Positions 1 to 55,068 of a DNA stretch of 55,068 nt are shown here, one piece after another (the first letter of the stretch is position 1; every line of letters starts with the position of its first letter). Under the pieces are notes generated by a model. The model did not search any database, was not told the DNA's origin, and saw only the letters and a program-made list of their open reading frames with translations. Position numbers and translations under genes: made by a program. The DNA is from Sediminibacterium sp. Gen4 (GTDB taxonomy: Bacteria; Bacteroidota; Bacteroidia; Chitinophagales; Chitinophagaceae): contig JACBFI010000023.1 of NCBI GenBank assembly GCA_013391385.1, forward strand, positions 1 to 55,068, given 5' to 3'.

Positions 1-223
1 CATCTGTCAACCCTCTATAAAGTAGTGGGGCAGCAAATAGTTGACGGTTGACAGACAGCAAGTAGAGGCCATAAGCTATTACCCATAAGCAATTCGCTAA
101 CTGTCAACTCTCAACTGTCATCTGTCAACCCTCTATAAAGTAGTGGGGCAGCAAATAGTTGACGGTTGACAGAAAGTAGAGGCCATAAGCTATTACCCAT
201 AAGCAATTCGCTAACTGCCAACT
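1..223. repeat. Tandem duplication of a 118-bp intergenic unit made of 7-mer words
   Basis: The block beginning CATCTGTCAACCCTC at 1 recurs at 119, so the period is 118 bp; the second copy carries a 4-base deletion near 173. Inside each copy are degenerate 7-mers such as TGTCAAC, TCTCAAC, AGCTATT and ACCCATA. The arm at 39-58 (containing GTTGACGGTTGACAG) is roughly the reverse complement of 101-130, so each copy could fold. The rest of 1-395 has no gene; 224-395 is AT-rich upstream sequence of the next gene. Confidence 0.85.
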
Positions 224-4502: not shown

Positions 4503-4537
4503 ACCATGGACCATGGACCATGGACCATGGACTATGT
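4503..4537. repeat. CCATGGA heptamer array between nuoB and nuoC
   Basis: Four copies of the 7-mer CCATGGA lie in tandem, starting five bases after the nuoB stop. Each copy contains the palindrome CCATGG. Because the period is 7, ATG triplets occur in all three frames (4506, 4513, 4520, 4527, 4534), of which 4513 and 4534 are in frame with nuoC. Confidence 0.9.
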
Positions 4538-4551
4538 ACAAAAACATAAAA

Positions 4552-5058
4552 ATGGCATTAACGAATTCATACATACAGGAAAAATTAAAAGAGAAGTTTG
4601 GTGATCAGGTGTACAATTTTGAGGAAACCTATGGGATGCTCAGTTTTGAAGCACCTAAAGATCACAACCTGAAAGTGATGCAGTTTTTATATGATGATGA
4701 AACACTTCAGTTTCGTTTCCTGACAGATTTATGTGCAGTGAATTATCCGGATGATGCGGGAAGAGAATTAGCAGTTGTATATCATTTGCACAATCTGGTT
4801 GAGAATGTACGCATTCGTTTTAAAGTATTTACGGCTGTAGAAACACCTGATGTATTCACGGCATCTCAGTTATTCTCAAGTGCTAACTGGATGGAACGTG
4901 AAACTTATGATTTCTATGGAGTAAATTTTGTAGGTCATCCCAATCTGAAACGCATTTTGAATGTAGATGAGATGGATTATTTCCCATTAAGGAAAGAGTA
5001 TCCATTAGAAGATCAAACAAGGATTGATAAGGATGATGAAATGTTTGGAAGAGGATGA
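4552..5058 (+). CDS. nuoC: NADH-quinone oxidoreductase subunit C
   Basis: This peripheral-arm subunit has about 168 residues and is a separate protein, not a NuoCD fusion. The family segment ERETYDFYGVNFVGHPNLKR and the C-terminal FPLRKEYPLE motif (about 128-148) are present. The start at 4552 (MALTNSY) is chosen because the in-frame upstream ATGs at 4513 and 4534 arise from the heptamer array and encode a non-conserved extension. Confidence 0.95.
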   Translation: MALTNSYIQEKLKEKFGDQVYNFEETYGMLSFEAPKDHNLKVMQFLYDDETLQFRFLTDLCAVNYPDDAGRELAVVYHLHNLVENVRIRFKVFTAVETPDVFTASQLFSSANWMERETYDFYGVNFVGHPNLKRILNVDEMDYFPLRKEYPLEDQTRIDKDDEMFGRG

Positions 5059-5060
5059 GA

Positions 5061-5130
5061 AAAAAAGTCAAAAGTGAAAAGTCAAAAGTCAAAAAATATT
5101 CCCTTTCACTTTTCACCTTTCACTTTTCAC
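5061..5130. repeat. Hairpin of GTCAAAA-type heptamers between nuoC and nuoD
   Basis: Left arm 5065-5096 consists of GTCAAAA and GTGAAAA repeats. After a loop around ATATTCC, the right arm 5102-5130 (CTTTCACTTTTCACC and continuing) is its approximate reverse complement. The element begins two bases after the nuoC stop. Confidence 0.88.
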
Positions 5131-5158
5131 AAATAATTGGCCGATCAATATAAGAAAC

Positions 5159-6391
5159 ATGTTAGCGCAACAACAACAGAATATCAAATTACCGGAAGGT
5201 TCCATTGAAAAGGAAACCACTACGTTAAACGTAGGACCTACACACCCTGCAACACACGGTGTATTCCAAAATATCATGGAATTGGATGGTGAAAGAGTGG
5301 TATCAACTGAACAAACCGTTGGATATATTCATCGTGCATTTGAAAAACTGGCAGAACGTAGACCACTCTATCAGGTTACGCCAATTACTGACCGTTTGAA
5401 TTATTGCAGCAGTCCGATCAATAATATGGGTTGGCACCTGACCTGTGAAAAATTATTGGGTGTTCAAACGCCCAAGCGTGTTGATTACTTGCGCGTGATC
5501 ATTATGGAGTTGGCACGTATTTCTGATCACCTGATCTGTAACTCTATTGTGGGTGTGGATACAGGAGCGTATACAGGGTTCTTGTATGTGATGCAATACC
5601 GTGAATTAATCTATGAAATATATGAAGAAGTATGTGGGTCCCGCCTTACTACTAATATTGGGCGTATTGGCGGTTTTGAAAGGAATTTCTCAAATACAGC
5701 ATTTACGAAACTCGAGAAATTCTTAAATGAATATCCGAAAGTGTTGAAAGAGTTTGAAAACCTTTTCACACGTAATCGCATTTTCATGGACCGTACACAA
5801 GGTACCGGTGGTATCAGTGCTGAAAGAGCATTGAACTATGGGTTTACCGGTCCAAATCTGCGCGCTGCAGGAGTTGATTATGATGTGCGTGTACATAACC
5901 CTTACAGCAGTTATGAAGATTTTAATTTCACAGTTCCTGTTGGTAAAACAGGCGATAACTATGATCGCTTCTTGGTGCGTAATGCGGAAATGTGGCAGAG
6001 CTTAAGCATCATTGAACAAGCCTATCAGAAAATTCAAGAGTTCAAAGGTGCAGATGCAGAAGTGTATCATGCTAATGTTCCTGAATATTATCTGCCAAAG
6101 AAGGAAGATGTGTATACCAAGATGGAAGCCTTGATTTGGCATTTCAAAATCATCATGGGTGAGGTAGACATGCCAAAAGGTGAAGTGTACCATGCAGTAG
6201 AAGGTGGTAATGGTGAGTTAGGCTTTTATCTGATCAGTGATGGAGGAAGAACACCATTCCGTCTGCATTTCAGAAGACCTTGTTTCATTTATTATCAGGC
6301 ATATCCTGAGCTGATCCAAGGTGGTATGTTGAGTGATGCGATTGTAACGATGAGTAGTTTGAATCTAATTGCAGGAGAATTAGATGCATAA
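5159..6391 (+). CDS. nuoD: NADH-quinone oxidoreductase subunit D
   Basis: This 410-residue subunit belongs to the 49-kDa family and forms the quinone-binding pocket with NuoB. Family landmarks are NVGPTHPATHG at about residue 25, containing the quinone-site histidine, RIGGFERNFS near 168, and the C-terminal FRPCFIYYQ-like segment with SDAIVTMSSLNLIAGELD. Length and order are normal. It is flanked on both sides by heptamer-type hairpins. Confidence 0.97.
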   Translation: MLAQQQQNIKLPEGSIEKETTTLNVGPTHPATHGVFQNIMELDGERVVSTEQTVGYIHRAFEKLAERRPLYQVTPITDRLNYCSSPINNMGWHLTCEKLLGVQTPKRVDYLRVIIMELARISDHLICNSIVGVDTGAYTGFLYVMQYRELIYEIYEEVCGSRLTTNIGRIGGFERNFSNTAFTKLEKFLNEYPKVLKEFENLFTRNRIFMDRTQGTGGISAERALNYGFTGPNLRAAGVDYDVRVHNPYSSYEDFNFTVPVGKTGDNYDRFLVRNAEMWQSLSIIEQAYQKIQEFKGADAEVYHANVPEYYLPKKEDVYTKMEALIWHFKIIMGEVDMPKGEVYHAVEGGNGELGFYLISDGGRTPFRLHFRRPCFIYYQAYPELIQGGMLSDAIVTMSSLNLIAGELDA

Positions 6392-6478
6392 TAATTTGAA
6401 AATTTGAAGATTTGAAAATGTACTAATTATTGGAAGGGTTCATTTTCAAATTTTCAAATTTTCAAATTTCCAAATTTG
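6392..6478. repeat. Hairpin of AATTTGAA-type repeats between nuoD and nuoE
   Basis: Left arm 6393-6420 is built of AATTTGAA/GATTTGAA octamers. Right arm 6443-6477 (CATTTTCAAATTTTCAAA and continuing) is the reverse complement. The element starts directly after the nuoD stop and reaches into the bases just before the nuoE start. Confidence 0.88.
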
Positions 6479-6484
6479 AATTGT

Positions 6485-6985
6485 ATGTTGAAATTTTCAG
6501 AAGAACAAATGACCGAATTCAAGCGCTTGGTAGCGCGTTATCCGGAAGGCAAGCAGAAAAGTGCATTGCTTCCGGTTTTGCATTTGGCACAAGATAGTTT
6601 TGGCGGATGGTTAAGTGCTGAAACAATGGATTATGTAGCAGAGCTGTTGCAGATCACTCCCATCGAAGTGTATGAGGTAGCAACTTTTTATAGCATGTAC
6701 AACCTCAAGCCCGTAGGTAAATACATGTTTGAAGTTTGTCAGACTGGTCCATGTATGTTGAGAGGTAGTGATGATATCATTGCTTATATCGGAGAAAAAC
6801 TGGGCATCAAACCCGGAGAAACAACAGCCGATGGAATGTTTACATTGAAAACAGTAGAATGCTTAGGTGCATGTGGATATGCTCCCATGATGCAACTCGG
6901 TAAACACTATCGTGAACACCTGACCAAAGAAAAAGTAGACGCTATCATTGACGAATGCAGAAAAACAGCAGCAAGCTTAAATTAA
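6485..6985 (+). CDS. nuoE: NADH-quinone oxidoreductase subunit E
   Basis: The 166-residue thioredoxin-fold subunit binds the N1a [2Fe-2S] cluster through C85 and C90 (CQTGPC) and C126 and C130 (CLGAC). The start is set at the ATG at 6485; an in-frame TTG at 6476 lies inside the preceding hairpin and is unlikely. It forms the NADH-dehydrogenase module with NuoF. Confidence 0.96.
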   Translation: MLKFSEEQMTEFKRLVARYPEGKQKSALLPVLHLAQDSFGGWLSAETMDYVAELLQITPIEVYEVATFYSMYNLKPVGKYMFEVCQTGPCMLRGSDDIIAYIGEKLGIKPGETTADGMFTLKTVECLGACGYAPMMQLGKHYREHLTKEKVDAIIDECRKTAASLN

Positions 6986-6989
6986 CAAG

Positions 6990-7445
6990 ATGAAAAATTT
7001 GATCTACATATTTCTTATGTCATTGTTCTTTGCTGCTTGTAGTGAAGTGTCTAATACAGAAGTGGTAGAGAAAACAACGGTTGCGGTAGATGATTCGGAA
7101 GTGACAAAAATTGTTGATGGTGCCACCGCTCAAAACTCATTAGATGTTGTAGGTACCTATAAAGGGGTGTTGCCTTGTGCAGATTGTGAAGGCATGGAAA
7201 CAATGATTGAATTGAAATCAGATTCAACCTATTCCAGAGTCATTACATACTTGGGTAAAAAGGAAAATAGTTTTACAGCATCGGGTAAGTGGAATTGGAT
7301 TAGCGGTTCTACCATTAGTTTAGGAAGTATCAAAGAAGGACCGAATCAATATTTTGTTGCCGAAGGGAAATTGATTCAGTTGGATATGAGTGGCAACAGA
7401 ATCACCGGCGAACTCGCTGCTAAATACGAATTAAAAAAACAGTAG
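6990..7445 (+). CDS. NlpE-like lipoprotein within the nuo operon
   Basis: The 151-residue protein has a lipoprotein signal peptide with lipobox FAAC (Cys17). A domain follows that matches the NlpE N-terminal family: GTYKGVLPCADCEGMETMI at about 55-73, with the CxxC pair C63/C66, then a small beta-barrel-like pattern. In E. coli NlpE is an outer-membrane sensor linked to copper and envelope stress. Here the gene starts 4 bases after nuoE and precedes nuoF, so it is probably transcribed with complex I. Its function in this setting is unknown. Confidence 0.85.
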   Translation: MKNLIYIFLMSLFFAACSEVSNTEVVEKTTVAVDDSEVTKIVDGATAQNSLDVVGTYKGVLPCADCEGMETMIELKSDSTYSRVITYLGKKENSFTASGKWNWISGSTISLGSIKEGPNQYFVAEGKLIQLDMSGNRITGELAAKYELKKQ

Positions 7446-7463
7446 TTGAATAGTATTTAAAAT

Positions 7464-7475
7464 TCCCGAAAGGGA
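7464..7475 (+). promoter_or_regulatory. Mini-hairpin TCCC-GAAA-GGGA before nuoF
   Basis: A 4-bp stem with a GNRA-type tetraloop ends 9 bases before the nuoF ATG. The 3' arm AGGGA overlaps the Shine-Dalgarno position. Equivalent hairpins precede nuoI, nuoL and nuoN. Confidence 0.6.
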
Positions 7476-7484
7476 TATGAGGAT

Positions 7485-8840
7485 ATGAGTAAAAAATTAT
7501 TACTGGAAAAGGCACATGTAGAAGGCATCCGCTACTTCGATGTATATCGGAGAGAAGGTGGGTATAGAAGTGTTGAAAAAGCACTCAAAGAGATGAGCCC
7601 AGAAGCCATTGTGGAAGAAGTGAAGAAAAGTGGCCTTCGTGGTCGTGGTGGCGCGGGTTTCCCTGCCGGAATGAAATGGAGCTTCATTGCAAAGCCTGAA
7701 GGCGTACCACGTCACTTGGTGTGTAATGCCGATGAGAGTGAACCCGGTACATTCAAAGACCGCTACTTGATGGAATTCATTCCTCACTTATTGATTGAAG
7801 GTTTGATCGTTTCCTCTTTTGCATTGGGAAGTAATGATACTTATATCTACATCCGCGGGGAATATGCATGGATCGTTGACATTTTGGAGCAAGCAATTAC
7901 AGAAGCCAAGAACAATGGCTTTCTTGGTAAAAATATTTTAGGAAGTGGTTTTGATTGTAACATCCATGTACAAAGAGGTGCAGGTGCCTATATCTGCGGA
8001 GAAGAAACTGCATTGATTGAATCATTGGAAGGTAAACGCGGTAACCCAAGAATCAAACCTCCGTTCCCTGCTGTGAAAGGAGTGTGGGACAGACCTACGG
8101 TAGTGAACAACGTGGAGACATTAGCTGCAGTGGTGCCGATCATCAATATGGGTGGTGATGAATATGCGAAGATTGGTGTAGGGAGATCAACAGGAACAAA
8201 ACTGATCAGTGCTTGCGGTAATATCAACAAACCCGGTGTTTACGAGATCGATATGACCATCTCTGTAGAAGAATTTATTTACAGTGATGAGTACTGTGGT
8301 GGTATTCCCAACGGAAAAAAATTGAAAGCATGTATTCCAGGTGGTTCTTCTGTGCCCATTCTTCCTGCTAATCTTTTGTTGAAAACAGCGAAGGGTGAAA
8401 CCCGTTACATGAATTACGAAAGTTTGGCTGACGGTGGTTTTGCCAGTGGCTCCATGATGGGTTCTGGTGGATTCATTGTATTGGATGAAGATCAATGTGT
8501 GGTTCGTCACACCTTATCATTGGCTCGTTTCTACAGACATGAAAGTTGCGGGCAATGTTCACCTTGTAGAGAAGGAACGGGATGGATGGAAAAGATTCTC
8601 AAGAACATCGAATACGGAAATGGAAAGATGAGTGATATCGATCTGCTTTGGGATATCCAACGCAAGATCGAGGGAAATACGATTTGTCCATTAGGTGATG
8701 CCGCAGCATGGCCTGTAGCAGCAGCAATTAGACATTTCAGAGATGAATTCGAATGGCATGTCTTGAATCCAGAAGAATCACAGAAGAGGAATTATGGGTT
8801 GGCGCATTATGCAGATCCGATACATGTGCCGGTTGCATAA
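7485..8840 (+). CDS. nuoF: NADH-quinone oxidoreductase subunit F (NADH-binding)
   Basis: The 451-residue subunit binds NADH, FMN and the N3 [4Fe-4S] cluster. Visible motifs are the glycine-rich GRGGAGFPAGMKWSF (about 52-66), GAGAYICGEETALIESLEG (about 166-184) and the cluster ligands ESCGQCSPCREGTGW (about 353-367), with the fourth Cys in NTICPLGDAAAW (about 398). Length is normal. It receives hydride from NADH and passes electrons to NuoG. Confidence 0.97.
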   Translation: MSKKLLLEKAHVEGIRYFDVYRREGGYRSVEKALKEMSPEAIVEEVKKSGLRGRGGAGFPAGMKWSFIAKPEGVPRHLVCNADESEPGTFKDRYLMEFIPHLLIEGLIVSSFALGSNDTYIYIRGEYAWIVDILEQAITEAKNNGFLGKNILGSGFDCNIHVQRGAGAYICGEETALIESLEGKRGNPRIKPPFPAVKGVWDRPTVVNNVETLAAVVPIINMGGDEYAKIGVGRSTGTKLISACGNINKPGVYEIDMTISVEEFIYSDEYCGGIPNGKKLKACIPGGSSVPILPANLLLKTAKGETRYMNYESLADGGFASGSMMGSGGFIVLDEDQCVVRHTLSLARFYRHESCGQCSPCREGTGWMEKILKNIEYGNGKMSDIDLLWDIQRKIEGNTICPLGDAAAWPVAAAIRHFRDEFEWHVLNPEESQKRNYGLAHYADPIHVPVA

Positions 8841-9318
8841 TTAAAAAGTAAAAAGTAAAAATTCAAAAAATGGATGTTGAATTTGATGCTTTTGAAGTTA
8901 ATGAGGGAGAGAAGCCTTACAATATCAGACATAGATGTTTTTTCTTTTCTAAAGAGATTCTATTCTTTGTCAAAGATTGTAAGTATGAAAAAGTATATAG
9001 TTCTTTATTTGATCAGTTAGTAAGAAGTGCTACCTCTATAGGCGTGAATGTAGTAGAAGGTAAAGCAGGGAGCTCTAAAAAAGATTGGAACAAGTATCTG
9101 GTAATAGCACTGAAATCGGCTAATGAAACAAAGTATTGGTTATGTTTAATAAGAGATACACAAGAAGTTTCTAAGGAGAAAGTAAACGAACTGATCAAAG
9201 AAGCAGATGAATTGTCAAAGATCATTGCTTCAATAATAATAAACGCTAAATAGTCATCGTCAGGTTTTTTTTGACTTTTTAATTTTGACTTTTGACTTTT
9301 TAATTTTGAATTAATATT
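8841..9318. repeat. Heptamer inverted repeat enclosing a four-helix-bundle gene
   Basis: The left arm 8841-8869 (units AAAAAGT, AAAAAGT, AAAAATT) fills the gap between the nuoF stop and the next ATG. The right arm 9264-9313 (units TTGACTT, TTTAATT repeated) fills the gap from the end of that gene to nuoG. The arms are imperfect reverse complements with about five mismatches over 25 bases. The layout matches the empty intergenic hairpins elsewhere in the window but carries a gene in the loop. Confidence 0.7.
8870..9253 (+). CDS. Four-helix bundle protein (S23/IVS family)
   Basis: The 127-residue protein matches the four-helix-bundle family first known as the protein encoded in 23S rRNA intervening sequences and related to the Avd protein of diversity-generating retroelements. 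The family core LFDQLVRSATSIGVNVVEG is at about 46-64 and ALKSANETKYWLCLI is at about 82-96. It sits between nuoF and nuoG, where no complex I subunit belongs, and both flanking gaps are heptamer repeat arms. The molecular function of most family members is not established. Insertion as a mobile unit is an inference. Confidence 0.9.
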   Translation: MDVEFDAFEVNEGEKPYNIRHRCFFFSKEILFFVKDCKYEKVYSSLFDQLVRSATSIGVNVVEGKAGSSKKDWNKYLVIALKSANETKYWLCLIRDTQEVSKEKVNELIKEADELSKIIASIIINAK

Positions 9319-10440
9319 ATGTCTGACCAACAACAATTGTTTAAAGTAACAATCGACAACATCACAATTGAAGTTCCAGCAGGAACAACAATTCTGAATG
9401 CTGCACGTAAGATCGGCGGTGATGTAGCACCCCCGGCTATGTGTTATTACAGTAAGCTGGAAGGAACTGGTGGTAAATGTCGTACCTGTTTGGTGGAAGT
9501 AAGCAAAGGTTCTGAAAAAGATCCACGGCCTATGCCTAAGCTGGTGGCGTCTTGTCGTACCACAGTGATGGATGGCATGGAAGTAAAAAATATCACCAGT
9601 GAAAAAGTGCTCGATGCTAGAGCAGGTGTTGTTGAATTCCTTTTGTTGAATCATCCTTTGGATTGTCCTATCTGTGACCAGGCAGGTGAATGTCATTTGC
9701 AAGATCTCAGCTACGAGCACGGTAAAGAAGGCACACGTTACGAATTCCAAAGAAGAACATTTAAGAAACACGATATCGGTCCATACATTCAATTACATAT
9801 GACGCGTTGCATTCTTTGCTACCGTTGTGTATTCACGGCTGATCAACTCACCAAAAAACGTGAGCATGGTGTATTGGATCGCGGAGATCATGCTGAAATC
9901 GCCACATTCATCGAGAAGAGTCTTGAAAATGATTTCATCGGTAATGTGATCGATGTTTGTCCGGTAGGTGCGCTTACTGACAAAACATTCCGTTTCAAAA
10001 ACAGGGTATGGTTCCTGAAGCCTATGGATGCGCATCGAGATTGTCCAACATGTAGCGGTCGTGTTACACTGTGGAACAGAGGCGATGAAGTATTTCGTGT
10101 TACAGCCAGAAAAGATGAGTGGGGTGAAGTAGAAGATACGCCTGATGGAAAGCCCGGATGGATTTGTAATACTTGTCGCTTCGAAAAGAAAAAAACAAGC
10201 GATTGGGTAATCGAAGGTCCTCGTTTGATTAATAGGCACTCAGTGATTTCACAAGGACATTATGCAGGTAAAGTAGGTACTCATATGCCAACTGAAACCT
10301 TTGAAGCAGTGAATGACGGACGCAAACCTAAACTGCTGATGGATATTCATTCAGTAAGCGAAGTGAATAAACCGGAAGTACAATTGAGTCTGATCGATGG
10401 ACCGGCTCATTCCAAAGTATTTAATCAGAATAACGACTAA
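9319..10440 (+). CDS. nuoG: NADH-quinone oxidoreductase subunit G, short form
   Basis: At 373 residues this is much shorter than the roughly 900-residue E. coli NuoG because the molybdopterin-oxidoreductase-like domain is missing. Cluster ligands are present: [2Fe-2S] C42, C54, C57, C79; N5 with H112, C116, C119, C125; and N4 with C164, C167, C170, C214. A further pair of CxxC motifs (C242/C245 and C283/C286) may be a remnant N7-like or structural metal site. Short NuoG is usual in Bacteroidota as far as I know, so this is not a truncation artefact. Confidence 0.94.
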   Translation: MSDQQQLFKVTIDNITIEVPAGTTILNAARKIGGDVAPPAMCYYSKLEGTGGKCRTCLVEVSKGSEKDPRPMPKLVASCRTTVMDGMEVKNITSEKVLDARAGVVEFLLLNHPLDCPICDQAGECHLQDLSYEHGKEGTRYEFQRRTFKKHDIGPYIQLHMTRCILCYRCVFTADQLTKKREHGVLDRGDHAEIATFIEKSLENDFIGNVIDVCPVGALTDKTFRFKNRVWFLKPMDAHRDCPTCSGRVTLWNRGDEVFRVTARKDEWGEVEDTPDGKPGWICNTCRFEKKKTSDWVIEGPRLINRHSVISQGHYAGKVGTHMPTETFEAVNDGRKPKLLMDIHSVSEVNKPEVQLSLIDGPAHSKVFNQNND

Positions 10441-10454
10441 TTGAATTCTATATC

Positions 10455-11507
10455 ATGACACTACTTGCTTTTGATTGGGCATTATTGATAGAAAAACTAG
10501 CACTGATCGCAGTTATTGTGTTTGGTAGTCTGGGCATTGCTTTGTACACCACTTTCGCTGAAAGAAAAGTAGCGGCTGTTTTGCAAGACAGACCCGGTCC
10601 AAACCGTGCAGGTCCTTTTGGATTGTTTCAACCATTTGCAGATGGATTGAAATTGATCATGAAAGAAGAAATCATACCCAACACTTCTAATAAAGTCTTA
10701 TTTGTTTTGGGGCCGGGTTTGGCGATGACTGCAGCTTTGATGACTTGTGCAGTTATTCCATGGAGTAGTCATGTTGAATTGTTTGACAGAAAGATCGAAT
10801 TGCAAATTGCAGATATCAATATCGGAATCCTCTATGTTTTTGGTGTAGTCAGTATGGGTGTGTATGGTATCATGATTGGAGGATGGGCATCCAATAATAA
10901 ATTCTCTTTGATGGCAGCTCTTCGTGGTGCTTCTCAAGCCATCAGTTATGAATTGGCCATGGGACTTTCACTGATCGCTGTATTAATGTTATCCGGCTCA
11001 TTGAGTTTGAAAAGTATTGTAGGAGAACAAATGGCAGATGGCAATCTTTGGAATATTGCTTACCAGCCTTTAGGTTTCTTTATCTTCTTTATCTGTGCAT
11101 TGGCAGAATGTAATCGTACACCTTTTGATCTTCCTGAAGCAGAAAATGAATTGAACTTCGGATATCACCAGGAATATTCATCTATGAAGTTGGGCTTTTA
11201 TCTGTTCGCTGAATATGTGAACATGATCATGAGCAGTGCGGTAATGGCTTGTTTGTATTTTGGAGGGTATGATATTCCATTCTTGGATGAGTCAACATTG
11301 GCACCCAATATTGCGGCATTATTAGGAGTGGGTGCATTACTAACGAAGATTGTAATCTTTATTTTCATATTCATGTGGATACGCTGGACAATCCCGCGTT
11401 TCCGTTATGATCAGCTGATGAACCTTGGTTGGAAAACCATGATTCCATTGGCACTAGCAAATATGCTGATTACTGGAGCAGTGATATTGTGGAAGGCGGG
11501 GGCATGA
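10455..11507 (+). CDS. nuoH: NADH-quinone oxidoreductase subunit H
   Basis: This 350-residue polytopic subunit has about eight transmembrane segments. Family signatures are ERKVAAVLQDRPGPNRAGPFG (about 36-56), LAECNRTPFDLPEAENELN (about 217-235) and the C-terminal RWTIPRFRYDQLMNLGWK. It connects the quinone site to the proton-pumping arm. A heptamer hairpin follows two bases after its stop. Confidence 0.97.
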   Translation: MTLLAFDWALLIEKLALIAVIVFGSLGIALYTTFAERKVAAVLQDRPGPNRAGPFGLFQPFADGLKLIMKEEIIPNTSNKVLFVLGPGLAMTAALMTCAVIPWSSHVELFDRKIELQIADINIGILYVFGVVSMGVYGIMIGGWASNNKFSLMAALRGASQAISYELAMGLSLIAVLMLSGSLSLKSIVGEQMADGNLWNIAYQPLGFFIFFICALAECNRTPFDLPEAENELNFGYHQEYSSMKLGFYLFAEYVNMIMSSAVMACLYFGGYDIPFLDESTLAPNIAALLGVGALLTKIVIFIFIFMWIRWTIPRFRYDQLMNLGWKTMIPLALANMLITGAVILWKAGA

Positions 11508-11574
11508 TAATAGTGAGTAGTCATTAGTGAGTAGAACAAAAAAAGCTCACTACTCACTACTGACTATTCACTGA
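11508..11574. repeat. Hairpin of GTGAGTA-type heptamers after nuoH
   Basis: Left arm 11510-11534 reads as heptamers TAGTGAG/TAGTCAT/TAGTGAG. After a loop of AACAAAAAAAG the right arm 11546-11572 (CTCACTA repeated, then CTGACTA) is the reverse complement. Confidence 0.9.
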
Positions 11575-11579
11575 TAAAC

Positions 11580-11610
11580 TTGGCATCAATAGGTTAGAAA
11601 AATATTTTTG
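11580..11610 (+). promoter_or_regulatory. Internal promoter before nuoI
   Basis: TTG at 11580-11582 and TATTTTTG at 11603-11610 are separated by 20 bases, an excellent match to the Bacteroidota consensus TTG-N(17-23)-TAnnTTTG. It would start a transcript covering nuoI to nuoN, independent of the upstream promoter. Confidence 0.65.
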
Positions 11611-11623
11611 CAAACATTAAACA

Positions 11624-11634
11624 TCCCTAAGGGA
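11624..11634 (+). promoter_or_regulatory. Mini-hairpin TCCC-TAA-GGGA before nuoI
   Basis: A 4-bp stem with a 3-base loop ends 8 bases before the nuoI ATG, in the Shine-Dalgarno position; same design as before nuoF, nuoL and nuoN. Confidence 0.55.
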
Positions 11635-11642
11635 TAGAACAT

Positions 11643-12173
11643 ATGCAGGCATTAACAAACAGGGGACAAGAAGTGAGTCGGAAGCCAATGAGCTTCATGG
11701 AGCGACTGTATATACCGGCAATTCTGAAGGGTATGGCCATTACATTCAGTCATATCTTCAAGAAAAAGCCCACCATTCGTTATCCAGAAGAAAAACGCCC
11801 TTTTAGTCCGGTGTTTAGAGGGTTGCATGTGTTGAATAGAGATGAAGAAGGACGTGAACGTTGTACTGCTTGTGGATTATGTGCAGTTGCTTGTCCGGCA
11901 GAAGCCATTACTATGGAAGCTGCAGAAAGATTGCCCAATGAAGAGAACTTGTACCGTGAAGAAAAGTACGCAGCTAAATATGAGATCAATATGTTGCGTT
12001 GTATCTTCTGTGGACTTTGTGAAGAAGCTTGTCCAAAAGACGCGATTTATTTGAGTGAAACATTTGCTCCGGCCAATTATACCAGGAAAGGATTTATTTA
12101 CGGAAAAGAAGAGTTGTTGATACCCAATCCTAAAACAGAGCCAGAAGCACATGCGAAAGCTAAAGGATTGTAA
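11643..12173 (+). CDS. nuoI: NADH-quinone oxidoreductase subunit I
   Basis: The 176-residue ferredoxin-like subunit holds clusters N6a and N6b. Ligands are C74, C77, C80, C84 (CTACGLCAVACP) and C120, C123, C126, C130 (CIFCGLCEEACP). The N-terminal amphipathic part (about 15-40) contacts NuoH in the family. It has its own candidate promoter and a start-proximal mini-hairpin. Confidence 0.97.
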   Translation: MQALTNRGQEVSRKPMSFMERLYIPAILKGMAITFSHIFKKKPTIRYPEEKRPFSPVFRGLHVLNRDEEGRERCTACGLCAVACPAEAITMEAAERLPNEENLYREEKYAAKYEINMLRCIFCGLCEEACPKDAIYLSETFAPANYTRKGFIYGKEELLIPNPKTEPEAHAKAKGL

Positions 12174-12232
12174 TAAAGAATAATCAGTTGTATTGTTATT
12201 ACAACTTATTATAAAACCTAATTAAAACACCA

Positions 12233-12736
12233 ATGAGTATAACACAGATCATGTTTTTCTTTTTGTCGGCACTGGCTGTTTTCTCAGCTATCATGGTACT
12301 GGTAAGCCGAAATCCGGTGCACAGTGTATTGTGGTTGATTGCGGTGTTTTTTGCCATTTCAGGTCATTATATTTTACTCAATGCACAATTCCTTGCTATC
12401 GTTAATCTGATCGTGTATGCAGGTGCCATCATGGTACTCTTCCTTTTTGTGATCATGTTAATGAACCTCAATAAAGAGTCTGAACCCAATAAACATATTT
12501 GGATGAAACTCGCAGGAGCGATTTCAGGCGGATGTTTTCTAATGGTAATGGTATCACTTGTGCGTCAGGCAGCAGATTTCCAAGGTAAAGAAGCTTTGGT
12601 AGGAACGGGAGATATCGGATTGATCAAGAATCTGGGTAAAGCCCTGTTCAGTAACTATGTAGTTCCATTCGAAATCAGCAGCGTGCTGTTTTTAAGTGCG
12701 ATGGTGGGGGCTGTGGTGATTGGGAAGAAGGAGTAG
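12233..12736 (+). CDS. nuoJ: NADH-quinone oxidoreductase subunit J
   Basis: This 167-residue membrane subunit has five predicted transmembrane segments and the family segment IVNLIVYAGAIMVLFLFVIML at about 55-75, including the pi-bulge region involved in coupling. Length is normal for the phylum. Confidence 0.95.
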   Translation: MSITQIMFFFLSALAVFSAIMVLVSRNPVHSVLWLIAVFFAISGHYILLNAQFLAIVNLIVYAGAIMVLFLFVIMLMNLNKESEPNKHIWMKLAGAISGGCFLMVMVSLVRQAADFQGKEALVGTGDIGLIKNLGKALFSNYVVPFEISSVLFLSAMVGAVVIGKKE

Positions 12737-12816
12737 TAGAGCTAATAGGTCATAGCCAATAGGTTATGGCAAATCAAATAATATCAATGGCTATAAGCCA
12801 TGAACAATAAGCTATA
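12737..12816. repeat. Heptamer inverted repeat between nuoJ and nuoK
   Basis: Left arm heptamers GCTAATA/GGTCATA/GCCAATA/GGTTATG run directly after the nuoJ stop. The right arm from 12787 (GGCTATA/AGCCATG/AACAATA/AGCTATA) is an imperfect reverse complement ending just before nuoK. The words resemble those of the repeat at 61-100. Confidence 0.75.
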
Positions 12817-30007: not shown

Positions 30008-30123
30008 TTTCTTAGAATTTAATGTGGTTAGTAAATAAACAACGGGTTATGTTACCACAACTTACTGTTTTTTACTGAAAATCAAAAGGGAAGGGGAAAA
30101 TAGTAATCCACAGGGGGTAATGT

Positions 30124-30196
30124 TAAATTTAAAATGCAAAAGTCAAAATGCAAAAGAACTCCTCTTTTTTGACTTTTGCATTTTGACTTTTACATT
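30124..30196. repeat. Hairpin of ATGCAAA/AGTCAAA heptamers after gyrB
   Basis: Left arm 30128-30156 has units ATGCAAA, AGTCAAA, ATGCAAA. The right arm 30166-30195 is the reverse complement after a CCTC-containing loop. It ends 5 bases from the gyrB stop. The stretch 30008-30123 holds nothing else I can identify. Confidence 0.9.
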
Positions 30197-44720: not shown

Positions 44721-44785
44721 ATTGCCACAGAAAGCACAGAATAGCACAGAATCATTCAGTGTATTTCAGTGCCTTCTGTGGCAAT
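44721..44785. repeat. Hairpin of CACAGAA words after gltX
   Basis: Left arm ATTGCCACAGAAAGCACAG (from 44721) and right arm ending CCTTCTGTGGCAAT (44785) are nearly exact reverse complements over 32 bases with a minimal loop. It ends 8 bases from the gltX stop. Confidence 0.9.
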
Positions 44786-46327: not shown

Positions 46328-46335
46328 CAAAGATA
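46328..46335 (-). promoter_or_regulatory. -7 element for gltX, four bases from the ATG
   Basis: TATCTTTG on the minus strand is separated from the gltX ATG by four bases, so the mRNA would be leaderless or nearly so. The divergent deacetylase gene has the identical arrangement. Confidence 0.5.
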
Positions 46336-46337
46336 AG

Positions 46338-46423
46338 AGCTACACGCTACAAGCCGAAAGCTACAAGCCACAAGGATAATTTCTATGCTTGTGGCTTGTA
46401 GCTTTCGGCTTGTAGCCTGCACC
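46338..46423. repeat. Hairpin of AGCTACA/AGCCACA heptamers between divergent promoters
   Basis: Left arm 46338-46374 reads as heptamers AGCTACA, CGCTACA, AGCCGAA, AGCTACA, AGCCACA. Right arm 46388-46423 is its reverse complement, perfect over 29 bases. It occupies the whole space between two divergent -7 elements. Confidence 0.92.
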
Positions 46424-46426
46424 ACT

Positions 46427-46434
46427 TATCTTTG
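46427..46434 (+). promoter_or_regulatory. -7 element for the deacetylase gene, four bases from the ATG
   Basis: TATCTTTG followed by GATC and the ATG at 46439. It mirrors the gltX side, and no -33 TTG fits because the hairpin arm lies there. Confidence 0.5.
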
Positions 46435-46438
46435 GATC

Positions 46439-47053
46439 ATGTATCTTACAAAAACTCCCTTCTGGCTGCGTAGTTTGTATCCTTCATTGGTATGGAGAAT
46501 GCCGGTGCAGGGGGAGAAGAAGATATATCTCACATTCGATGATGGTCCGCATCCACAGGCAACTCCATTTGTATTGGATCAGTTGGCTGCTTACGGAGCA
46601 AAAGCAACTTTCTTTTGTATTGGAAAGAATGTGGCTGCCGAACCTGACATCTATCAGCGTATCCTTGCTGAAGGACATACAGTTGGTAATCACACACAAC
46701 ATCATTTGAACGGATGGAAAACGGATGATACTACTTATTTGCATGATATTGCAACTGCGGAACAATACATTTCTTCAAACTTGTTCAGACCACCTTATGG
46801 ACGAATCAAACGTTCTCAAATCAAAGCCTTACATCAGCAGCAAAAAAAGATCATTATGTGGGATGTGTTGAGTGCTGATTTTGATACGCGTCTCACAGGC
46901 GAAGCTTGTTTAGCATACGTGCTCTATCATACCCAACCCGGTTCCATTGTTTTATTCCATGATAGTGCCAAAGCCTGGGATCGGATGTCGGTGGCATTGC
47001 CCAAGGTGCTGGAGTATTTTTCGGAGAAGGGGTTTCGGTTTGAGGGAATTTAG
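46439..47053 (+). CDS. Polysaccharide deacetylase family protein (CE4/NodB)
   Basis: The 204-residue protein is a NodB-domain enzyme. Motif 1 TFDDGP (32-37) supplies the base and metal aspartate, motif 2 NHTQHH supplies metal histidines, motif 3 is RPPYGR, and LFHDS near the C-terminus supplies the catalytic histidine. It removes N-acetyl groups from a glycan such as peptidoglycan or a surface polysaccharide. No clear signal peptide is seen, though residues 8-22 are hydrophobic. The start is fixed by the -7 box four bases upstream. Confidence 0.9.
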   Translation: MYLTKTPFWLRSLYPSLVWRMPVQGEKKIYLTFDDGPHPQATPFVLDQLAAYGAKATFFCIGKNVAAEPDIYQRILAEGHTVGNHTQHHLNGWKTDDTTYLHDIATAEQYISSNLFRPPYGRIKRSQIKALHQQQKKIIMWDVLSADFDTRLTGEACLAYVLYHTQPGSIVLFHDSAKAWDRMSVALPKVLEYFSEKGFRFEGI

Positions 47054-47132
47054 GATGTCAGATTTCAGATTTGAATTTTGAATTTTGATGTCTGATGTCT
47101 GATGTCTGATGTCTGATGTCTGATGTCTGATG
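47054..47132. repeat. Array of six perfect TCTGATG heptamers
   Basis: Six exact tandem copies of TCTGATG occupy 47091-47132. They are preceded by GTCAGATTTCAGATTTGAA, partly complementary to the array. The element begins at the stop codon of the deacetylase gene. Confidence 0.93.
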
Positions 47133-47162
47133 TATTTATAAAGGTACATAACTACTTTCTTT

Positions 47163-47196
47163 CCGTTAACTATCAACTTACAACTGTCAACTATAC
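47163..47196. repeat. Short single-arm TCAACTT/TCAACTA heptamer array
   Basis: Units TTAACTA, TCAACTT, ACAACTG, TCAACTA occur in tandem, using the same words as the repeat at 101-130. No reverse-complement arm is close by. The interval 47197-47430 holds a short terminator-like hairpin and otherwise nothing I can support. Confidence 0.75.
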
Positions 47197-52137: not shown

Positions 52138-52178
52138 AGTCCATAGTTAATAAGTCATCAATGTACTATAAAAGAGTA

Positions 52179-52272
52179 GGTGATCGGGTGATCAGGTAAT
52201 CGGGTGATCGGGTTTGTAGACCCTTAATACTTTAAAACCCTGATTACCCGATTACCTGATCACCCGATAACC
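52179..52272. repeat. Hairpin of GGGTGATC octamers
   Basis: Left arm 52179-52215 repeats GGGTGATC, AGGTAATC, GGGTGATC. Right arm 52234-52272 (AACCCTGATTACCCGATTAC and continuing) is the reverse complement. It contains many GATC sites and ends 26 bases before the operator repeats of the next gene. Confidence 0.92.
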
Positions 52273-52297
52273 ACCCTTTTTACGCTCCCGTATCACG

Positions 52298-54734: not shown

Positions 54735-55068
54735 AGGGGAATTAAAGATGTAAAGATAACGCTTTAAAGTTCCATAAGATTTCTTAGCTATAGCGTGACT
54801 TTTATCATTTGTAGTTGAATTTTTACCACAGAAGCCACAGAGTTTGGCGCAGAGTTACACGGAGTAAAATGGGAATACTATTAACACCCTATATTTCTCC
54901 GTGTAACTCTGTATTAAACTCCGTTTACTCTGTGGTTAAATATAATCAAAGCGTTACACGGGATAAATGAAGGAAGGGGTATTCAAGGTGTAAAGATAAC
55001 GCTTTAAAGTTCTATAAGATTTCTTAGTGGTAGCGTGACTTTTATCATGTTGTAGTTGAATTTTTACC
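54735..55068. repeat. Direct repeat of about 240-bp period with an internal hairpin, cut by the window end
   Basis: About 79 bases from 54750 (GTAAAGATAACGCTTTAAAG onward) recur at 54990 with few changes, a period of 240. Between the copies lies a hairpin of CACAGA/GAGTTACACGG words, left arm 54824-54864 and right arm 54897-54937. The second copy reaches the window end at the point where a second hairpin arm would begin. No gene was found from 54732 to 55068. Confidence 0.9.

Follow-up and report, generated by a model that had tools for sequence, protein, structure and literature searches.

Tandem-heptamer hairpins in the nuo operon of Sediminibacterium sp. Gen4 probably belong to a mobile, word-specific element family that carries a four-helix-bundle gene

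The window analysed here, a stretch of 55,068 nucleotides from Sediminibacterium sp. Gen4 (NCBI GenBank assembly GCA_013391385.1, contig JACBFI010000023.1, positions 1 to 55,068), carries a nuo operon in which the gaps nuoB-C, C-D, D-E, F-G, H-I and J-K all contain arrays of tandem 7- or 8-base words, as the initial annotation had described. In the nuoF-G gap, the arrays are both arms of a single element with a gene in its loop. The encoded protein belongs to the 23S rRNA intervening-sequence (IVS)/four-helix-bundle family (PF05635; 80.1 bits, cut-off 33.8), referred to below as S23/IVP. The gene had been noticed in the initial annotation but its membership in the repeat system was missed. The evidence throughout is comparative. 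The features of the operon are listed below, L and G numbers being our labels for loci and genomes.

4503..4536, unstranded: nuoB-C array of (ACCATGG)n, a self-complementary word, of the word family of the gene-bearing L276 in the sister genome
5063..5130, unstranded: nuoC-D hairpin (arms 5063-5094 and 5104-5130) of GTCAAAA/GTGAAAA
6393..6468, unstranded: nuoD-E hairpin of AATTTGAA (8-mer arms 6393-6423 and 6438-6468, 94% complementary), the word of the gene-bearing L286/L271
8842..8869, plus strand: 5' arm of the nuoF-G element, AAAAAGT/AAAATTC words, complementarity score to the 3' arm 23
8870..9253, plus strand: four-helix-bundle gene in the loop of the nuoF-G element, 23S_rRNA_IVP family (PF05635/TIGR02436)
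9269..9312, plus strand: 3' arm of the nuoF-G element, TTTTGACTTTTTAA words
11512..11572, unstranded: nuoH-I hairpin (arms 11512-11534 and 11550-11572, 91% complementary) of GTGAGTA/GTCATTA, the word of the gene-bearing L275
12740..12815, unstranded: degenerate, weakly pairing nuoJ-K hairpin (arrays 12740-12767 and 12793-12815) of GCTAATA/GGTTATG

RNA folding z-scores were -4.0 for the B-C gap, -2.8 for C-D, -6.4 for D-E, -8.0 for H-I and -3.7 for J-K; four gaps were folded as controls, of which I-J, which holds a plain inverted repeat, scored -3.3 and the other three between -1.0 and +0.1. The sole Rfam match in the window at the gathering threshold was a tRNA, and no known RNA family was found for the hairpins. 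We surveyed 438,209 bases of the same genome (G000; the window plus 383 kb). An excess of 7-base periodicity over shuffled sequence, a check proposed with the initial annotation, was present, with 86 period-7 arrays compared to 2. Of these arrays, 69 lay in the 12.4% of the sequence left as non-coding by a simple open reading frame (ORF) mask. Period-8 arrays numbered 13 (3 in shuffled sequence) and period-14 arrays 14 (0 in shuffled sequence), and the remaining periods between 4 and 15 gave 0-8 arrays each. A complementary partner within 700 nt (score at least 11, a count made without a shuffled control) was found for 74 of 108 intergenic 7/8-mer arrays.

In a complete element, an S23/IVP gene occupies the loop between inverted arms that are built of a tandem 7- or 8-base word. 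The Gen4 genome has five TIGR02436 genes. All five are flanked by complementary arrays, and no two share a word (arm scores 18 to 31.5; the highest score among 240 controls was 14.5). In three near genomes (G358, G359 and G360), where 29 of 31 genes were examined, 25 scored above 14.1 and all 29 reached 11.5, counts made without a control of their own. Among relatives found by sequence, 69 of 72 exceeded the 99% value of 671 displaced controls; 72 of 79 loci were used, the 7 without 300-base flanks being left out, and most of these are the nuoF-G element retained in place across Chitinophagaceae and Sphingobacteriaceae. Members of the set in WOR-3, Patescibacteria, Smithella and Nitrospirae records have related words. 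At diverse Bacteroidota loci (60 of 64 used, 4 truncated loci left out), 32 of 60 had an arm score above 14.1 compared to 1 of 240 controls. On plasmids (12 of 22 matches used), 10 of 12 copies had arms, with scores of 19 to 38, against a mean of 9.5 and a maximum of 14.0 in 48 controls. The positives were eight of nine cyanobacterial copies, Treponema and Chlorohelix, and the negatives were Bernardetia and Pseudanabaena. In one Nostoc plasmid copy, the gene is flanked by four AATTCGT units at one end and by four ACGAATT units at the opposite end. These comparisons place the architecture in several phyla, several of the phylum labels being taken from metagenome-bin titles.

Three four-helix elements with different words (L290, L287 and L275) lie within 3.7 kb in G359 (contig C1, 920802-924443). 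On plasmid pNsp_b of Nostoc sp. ATCC 53789, a four-helix gene with CAAGTCG arms (L231) adjoins XisH and XisI, whose distribution has been described by MacGregor as resembling that of TAACTGA repeats (PMC4679880).

The arm score is indifferent to a 7-base period, and the autocorrelation of the diverse Bacteroidota arms peaks at 7 and 14. The dinucleotide AG stands in phase across Bacteroidota words (0.70 compared to 0.28 in shuffled arms; 40 arms). A universal AG in each unit was rejected because several cyanobacterial words lack it by eye. Aligned arms had 4.3 units each, a number that would suggest a TRAP-like ring protein with each subunit reading about one unit; since the counted arms were preselected to have at least three units, no claim is drawn from it.

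S23/IVP proteins are present in 223 of 296 sampled Bacteroidota genomes; a count of 15 genes in a genome means at least 15, as at most 15 candidates were scored. AlphaFold models the nuoF-G protein as a four-helix bundle. The model matches 2rld and 2gsc, both structures of the S23 family, in each of which five chains are listed. It matches Avd (4dwl) more weakly (TM 0.69/0.80, 10% identity), and also a ribonucleoprotein of a diversity-generating retroelement (DGR; 8ub7), with Foldseek E values of 0.09 and 0.16 for 4dwl and 8ub7, respectively. A five-fold ring has been reported for a relative (PMC4990558). This ring, together with the kinship to Avd and S23, suggests that the four-helix protein may bind nucleic acid.

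Word similarity follows protein similarity. Protein identity correlated with word similarity across 46 loci outside the nuo clade, taken from 100 loci with an arm score above 12 (Mantel rho 0.28, reached by 0 of 500 permutations). Gene-less arrays of the Gen4 genome carry words of gene-bearing elements from the same or sister genomes, and most genomic copies are arms alone. Gen4 has 5 four-helix genes and its close relatives G358, G359 and G360 have 10, 13 and 8. Of the Gen4 arrays away from the four-helix genes, 76 of 99 matched the 34 gene-bearing elements of these four genomes, compared to 8 of 99 for 28 distant Bacteroidota elements. In this comparison the flanks were set by ORFs, which led to wrong arms for L288, L263 and L261; the three were kept in, their arms having been found in the survey of the near genomes. 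The five Gen4 elements matched 6, 3, 13, 8 and 2 Gen4 arrays, while 24 of 31 foreign elements matched none and the best of them, with 18, came from the same genus (p = 9e-5). Words that are gene-less in the window and gene-bearing in near genomes are GTCCATG (L276), GTGAGTA (L275), AATTTGAA (L286, L271) and GCTTATGG (L269), and GTGAATT, a word of the exchanged sites described below, has the gene-bearing counterpart L287. L283 and L291/L294 share a word and an 81%-identical protein at different loci in sister genomes.

Arms and units within a locus agree with each other more than those of different loci with the same word do (20.3 compared to 18.5, p = 0.0016). This would be expected of passive DNA dynamics, in which slippage extends 7-mers, quasi-palindrome template switching copies the arms and four-helix genes merely insert, and the lack of an RVT_1 match in the Gen4 genome also suits that account. 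However, passive dynamics leaves unexplained why the period is 7 bases in many phyla, why AG stands in phase in Bacteroidota words, why identical words turn up at many loci and also in relatives that have the cognate gene, and why arrays are scarce in gene-free genomes, as reported below. We consider it quite unlikely.

We then compared array sites with those of the sister genome G358, which is 93-96% identical to Gen4 in the matches seen; the comparison covers this one pair of draft genomes. Of 38 array sites mapped from Gen4 to the sister, 27 had the same word, 10 had a different word and 1 was ambiguous (nuoH-I, which has a different word by eye). Reverse mapping of 41 sites gave 29 with the same word, 9 with a different word and 3 ambiguous. 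The mapping used a lower array threshold, so that the 38 sites include short arrays that are not elements by eye. Among the sites scored as switched, window 28129 has by eye no array in the window genome and L163 1898 is short; conversely, C35:81465 scored as conserved (15.5) although its inner hairpin differs by eye and by arm comparison. Arms were compared at nine exchanged sites, namely six of the ten switched sites, C35:81465, nuoH-I and the unmapped nuoJ-K. The arms were complementary within each genome (8.5-27.5 in Gen4, the lowest being the nuoJ-K hairpin of the window, and 11.5-32 in the sister) and dissimilar between genomes (3-10.5), both arms having changed together. At nuoH-I the sister has GTGAATT/GTCAATG in place of GTGAGTA/GTCATTA, and at nuoJ-K it has GTCCATG in place of GCTAATA/GGTTATG. 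At another site, a gene-bearing GTCCATG element in the sister stands where the window genome has a gene-less AATTTGAA hairpin, and both start just past the same stop codon. Orthologous sites thus keep a hairpin while the word, and in one case the gene, differs.

The same words recurred at unrelated exchanged sites: GTGAATT-type words at five, GTTGACA-type at two and GTCCATG-type at three or four. The initial annotation had offered repeated intramolecular copying at the palindrome as one origin of arms that differ in sequence and stay complementary. Copying of this kind does not by itself account for the differences, since a small set of words recurs wherever the sisters differ at unrelated sites, and these are words of gene-bearing elements in relatives. 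The two genomes share an outer unit at C35:81466 and differ in the inner hairpin, which hints that the arrays themselves are the target of exchange.

The hairpins abut stop codons, and the orientation of the gene follows that of the upstream gene. In a set of 53 hairpins from Gen4 and its sister, pooled with orthologues counted twice, 39 of 49 stop-facing sides lay within 12 nt of, or overlapped, a stop codon (20.0 expected under uniform placement within these gaps), compared to 11 of 57 start-facing sides within 12 nt (Fisher 4e-10). At 51 of 54 diverse loci the four-helix gene pointed the same way as its upstream neighbour; the corresponding counts were 41 of 56 for other pairs (p = 0.0037) and 389 of 583 for genome pairs (p = 4e-6). 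Both observations, and the fact that words follow proteins, would suit post-transcriptional regulons, with each four-helix protein binding mRNAs at its own word to control their stability or translation, and with the sites that flank the gene serving autoregulation; translational regulation was proposed by MacGregor for the TAACTGA repeats (PMC4679880). Such regulons are nevertheless unlikely. A single nuo operon holds five different words, words at the same site differ between sister genomes, and the intergenic 7/8-mer arrays occupy every gene context (++ 29, -- 30, -+ 26, +- 23). Moreover, the transcript strand has no wobble bias. Selected RNA pairing should raise G-U above A-C mismatches on that strand, and the counts were 40 G-U and 61 A-C at gene-bearing elements (132 of 139 loci scored) and 52 G-U and 44 A-C in gene-less hairpins read in transcript sense (p = 0.48). 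Selection for the RNA stem, the other origin offered in the initial annotation, and with it slow compensatory evolution of the stem, gain no support from these counts. As the hairpins turn over as wholes, the wobble result is compatible with an RNA role, and because they hug stop codons the host may use them at mRNA 3' ends. A site that is kept while its word changes is compatible with such use.

Array density also followed the presence of the gene. Eleven genomes with 4 to at least 15 four-helix genes had 39 arrays in 388 kb, of which 15 had a partner. In ten genomes without TIGR02436 matches (a set without G066), 360 kb yielded 6 arrays, of which 1 had a partner (p = 0.013 on densities). Each set includes several arrays that look A-rich or G+C-rich by eye and do not belong to this type. 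We also inspected the nuo gaps of 4 of 10 measured genus members without a gene match. L165 has one array in nuoC-D and L169 retains an unpaired TTTTGAC array in nuoF-G.

In REPIN/RAYT systems, dispersed palindromes that lack the gene bear the cognate sequence of a gene family. The RAYT protein is a Y1 transposase, whereas the four-helix protein has no recognised catalytic domain. Dispersed, intergenic hairpins might be REP-like repeats moved by such a transposase (TnpA_REP), with the four-helix gene as a passenger, and Y1_Tnp is indeed matched in 10 of 11 gene-rich genomes compared to 4 of 10 gene-free ones. Yet no Y1_Tnp match was found in G088, which has nine four-helix genes and, in 40 kb, 9 arrays of which 2 are partnered; the Gen4 genome has just one Y1_Tnp match, and the words go with the four-helix protein, making this explanation very improbable. 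A Y1 transposase as necessary partner was rejected on the evidence of G088. A reverse transcriptase as partner was also rejected: G000 has no RVT_1 match, and of 22 genomes 7 had one, among them 3 of the 11 gene-rich and 4 of the 10 gene-free genomes. In a side observation, G161 contig C1 has 19 RVT_1 matches, many with equal scores, a multi-copy reverse transcriptase. By analogy, the simplest account is that the gene-less hairpins relate to the gene-bearing elements as REPINs do to RAYTs, minus the transposase.

Collectively, these results suggest that the hairpins are probably a mobile, word-specific element family with a four-helix gene and gene-less derivatives. In the mechanism that we propose from these comparisons, the four-helix gene would be expressed by read-through from the upstream gene. 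Its protein, which is Avd-like and may form a ring of five as in the solved relative, would recognise its own array as DNA or RNA and help hairpins of the same kind to be copied into arrays already present, by homing or template-switch conversion. A wider proposal is tentative. In it, a transposase-free mobile class in about eight phyla (by record titles) has word-specific ring proteins that exchange hairpin cassettes at fixed stop-abutting sites, which would persist as the arrays of the whole genome change from word to word; rRNA IVSs, cyanobacterial short tandemly repeated repetitive sequences (STRR) and other heptamer arrays would be members, and S23/IVP genes in cas loci would be hitchhikers.

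Several observations weigh against a mobile, word-specific family. The nuoF-G element owes its presence in that gap mostly to vertical inheritance. None of the 38 and 41 mapped sites was scored as empty, and no clean empty site of the kind expected for a transposon or MITE with target-site duplication was seen; window 28129 resembles a gain in the sister, with flanks too diverged to read. The correlation of words with proteins can arise by co-inheritance without recognition. Among the diverse loci 28 of 60, and among the plasmid loci 2 of 12, had no arms above the control value, and by eye a few high scorers (L108, L118) do not consist of heptamer arrays. The test of gene presence covers few genomes and includes A-rich arrays of doubtful type in both sets, G317 has 4 four-helix genes and zero arrays in 40 kb, and the genus members without a gene match are mixed, L177 and L181 being array-free in the printed gaps. 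Of the Gen4 arrays away from the four-helix genes, 23 of 99 match no element of the genus. By eye, loops are not common to the hairpins of one word, and copying of whole cassettes is for this reason unsupported.

Outside the operon, the window holds further arrays, listed below.

39..135, unstranded: GTTGACA/AACTGTC arrays (the word of the Gen4 element L002), inside a 118-bp tandem duplication
30119..30196, unstranded: gene-less hairpin of ATGCAAAA/GTCAAAA; the sister genome has GTGAGTA/GTCAGTA at this site
46332..46430, unstranded: gene-less hairpin of the word GCTACAA, RNA fold z -13.0
47048..47195, unstranded: two arrays without a good complementary partner, TGATGTC (as in the Gen4 element L004) and AACTATC, the latter resembling L002 yet under the match threshold of 11.5
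52170..52280, unstranded: gene-less 8-mer hairpin of GGTGATCG, with no gene-bearing cognate among the 34 compared elements

The initial annotation had counted at least nine elements of the same type outside the operon. Six of the nine listed (1, 30124, 46338, 47054, 47163 and 52179) are 7/8-mer arrays, 47054 and 47163 lacking a good complementary partner, and the other three (42473, 44721 and 54824) are inverted repeats without such arrays. It had also placed none inside an ORF, but the listed nuoC ORF has its start at 4513, within the array of the B-C gap, and there is also overlap with listed ORFs at 30124, 44721 and 46338; such ORFs or starts may be spurious. The inverted repeats at 44721-44785 and 54821-54940 have CACAGAA/CACAGAG/CACGGAG units of about 10 bases and form a separate hairpin repeat family, not one of 7/8-mers. 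At positions 1-224, the 118-bp unit is tandemly duplicated (1.9 copies, 95% match) with GTTGACA arrays inside; lying at the contig end, it may be an assembly or slippage duplication. Between nuoE and nuoF, an NlpE-domain gene (6990-7445) is present by tblastn in only some relatives. In the nuoF-G gap, L176 (G033) has a hairpin of the 8-mer ACGCAAAG where the window has the four-helix element, and L174 (G031) has a different stretch of ~700 bp with an apparent ORF at its start.

Parts of this picture are already known, namely rRNA IVSs, in which heptamers occur next to S23p (PMC4990558), and the heptamer arrays of several phyla (PMC2670836, PMC4679880, PMC4692102). In 23S rRNA IVSs, such as that of Coxiella burnetii, the S23p gene lies in the loop of a terminal-inverted-repeat stem, as here, and GACAGAT heptamers stand just upstream of its start (PMC4990558). 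The window element likewise has an S23-family (PF05635) ORF and a terminal inverted-repeat stem, but lies between nuoF and nuoG rather than inside a 23S rRNA gene, and elements of its kind are found in large numbers between protein genes, with many words, most copies being gene-less. The IVSs of rRNA are cut out of the transcript by RNase III, and no ligation follows. Cyanobacterial STRR are described as 7-bp tandem intergenic repeats able to form hairpins, of unknown function (PMC2670836). The Gen4 arrays are alike in being 7-bp, short tandem, multi-copy and intergenic, whereas a link to a protein gene goes unmentioned in that STRR account. The likeness to STRR drawn in the initial annotation is upheld by the cyanobacterial four-helix genes examined, eight of nine of which lie between heptamer arms. 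TAACTGA repeats of Beggiatoaceae, Cyanobacteria and Bacteroidetes are intergenic heptamer arrays with a patchy spread that includes the same two phyla, but are mostly direct repeats just upstream of start codons, and the terms 'helix bundle', 'S23' and 'intervening sequence' are absent from the main text of that account (PMC4679880). The heptamers GGGAATC of Xanthomonas and GGGGA(T/C)T of Nostoc, often less than 50 bp from stop codons and with 70 and 75 convergent pairs in two Xanthomonas genomes, were explained, unlike those here, through G-quadruplexes (PMC4692102). Avd, an accessory protein of DGRs (PMC10053308), has a fold like that of the window protein, yet the Gen4 genome has no RVT_1 match; template and variable repeats were not sought. 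In the open-licence PMC literature, we found no report that ties S23/four-helix genes to heptamer arrays outside rRNA.

S23/IVP genes have been reported in 18 cas loci (PMC3936711). On Anabaena and Nostoc plasmids (L228, L229), a four-helix gene in heptamer arms lies between cas2 and cas1 on the opposite strand, and in Planktothrix (L239) one with heptamer arms lies between drmD and a restriction gene. A cas2-cas1 position inside heptamer arms is as expected of an inserted element and alters the reading of the S23/IVP genes of cas loci. S23/IVP proteins have been called functionally uncharacterized (PMC11270868). If heptamer repeats and S23/IVP proteins are one element with word-specific proteins, both would become testable, by binding and by turnover. 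The hairpins are also a natural case of a structure kept at its site while its sequence differs between close relatives. If true, the link would join several old puzzles on bacterial repeats.

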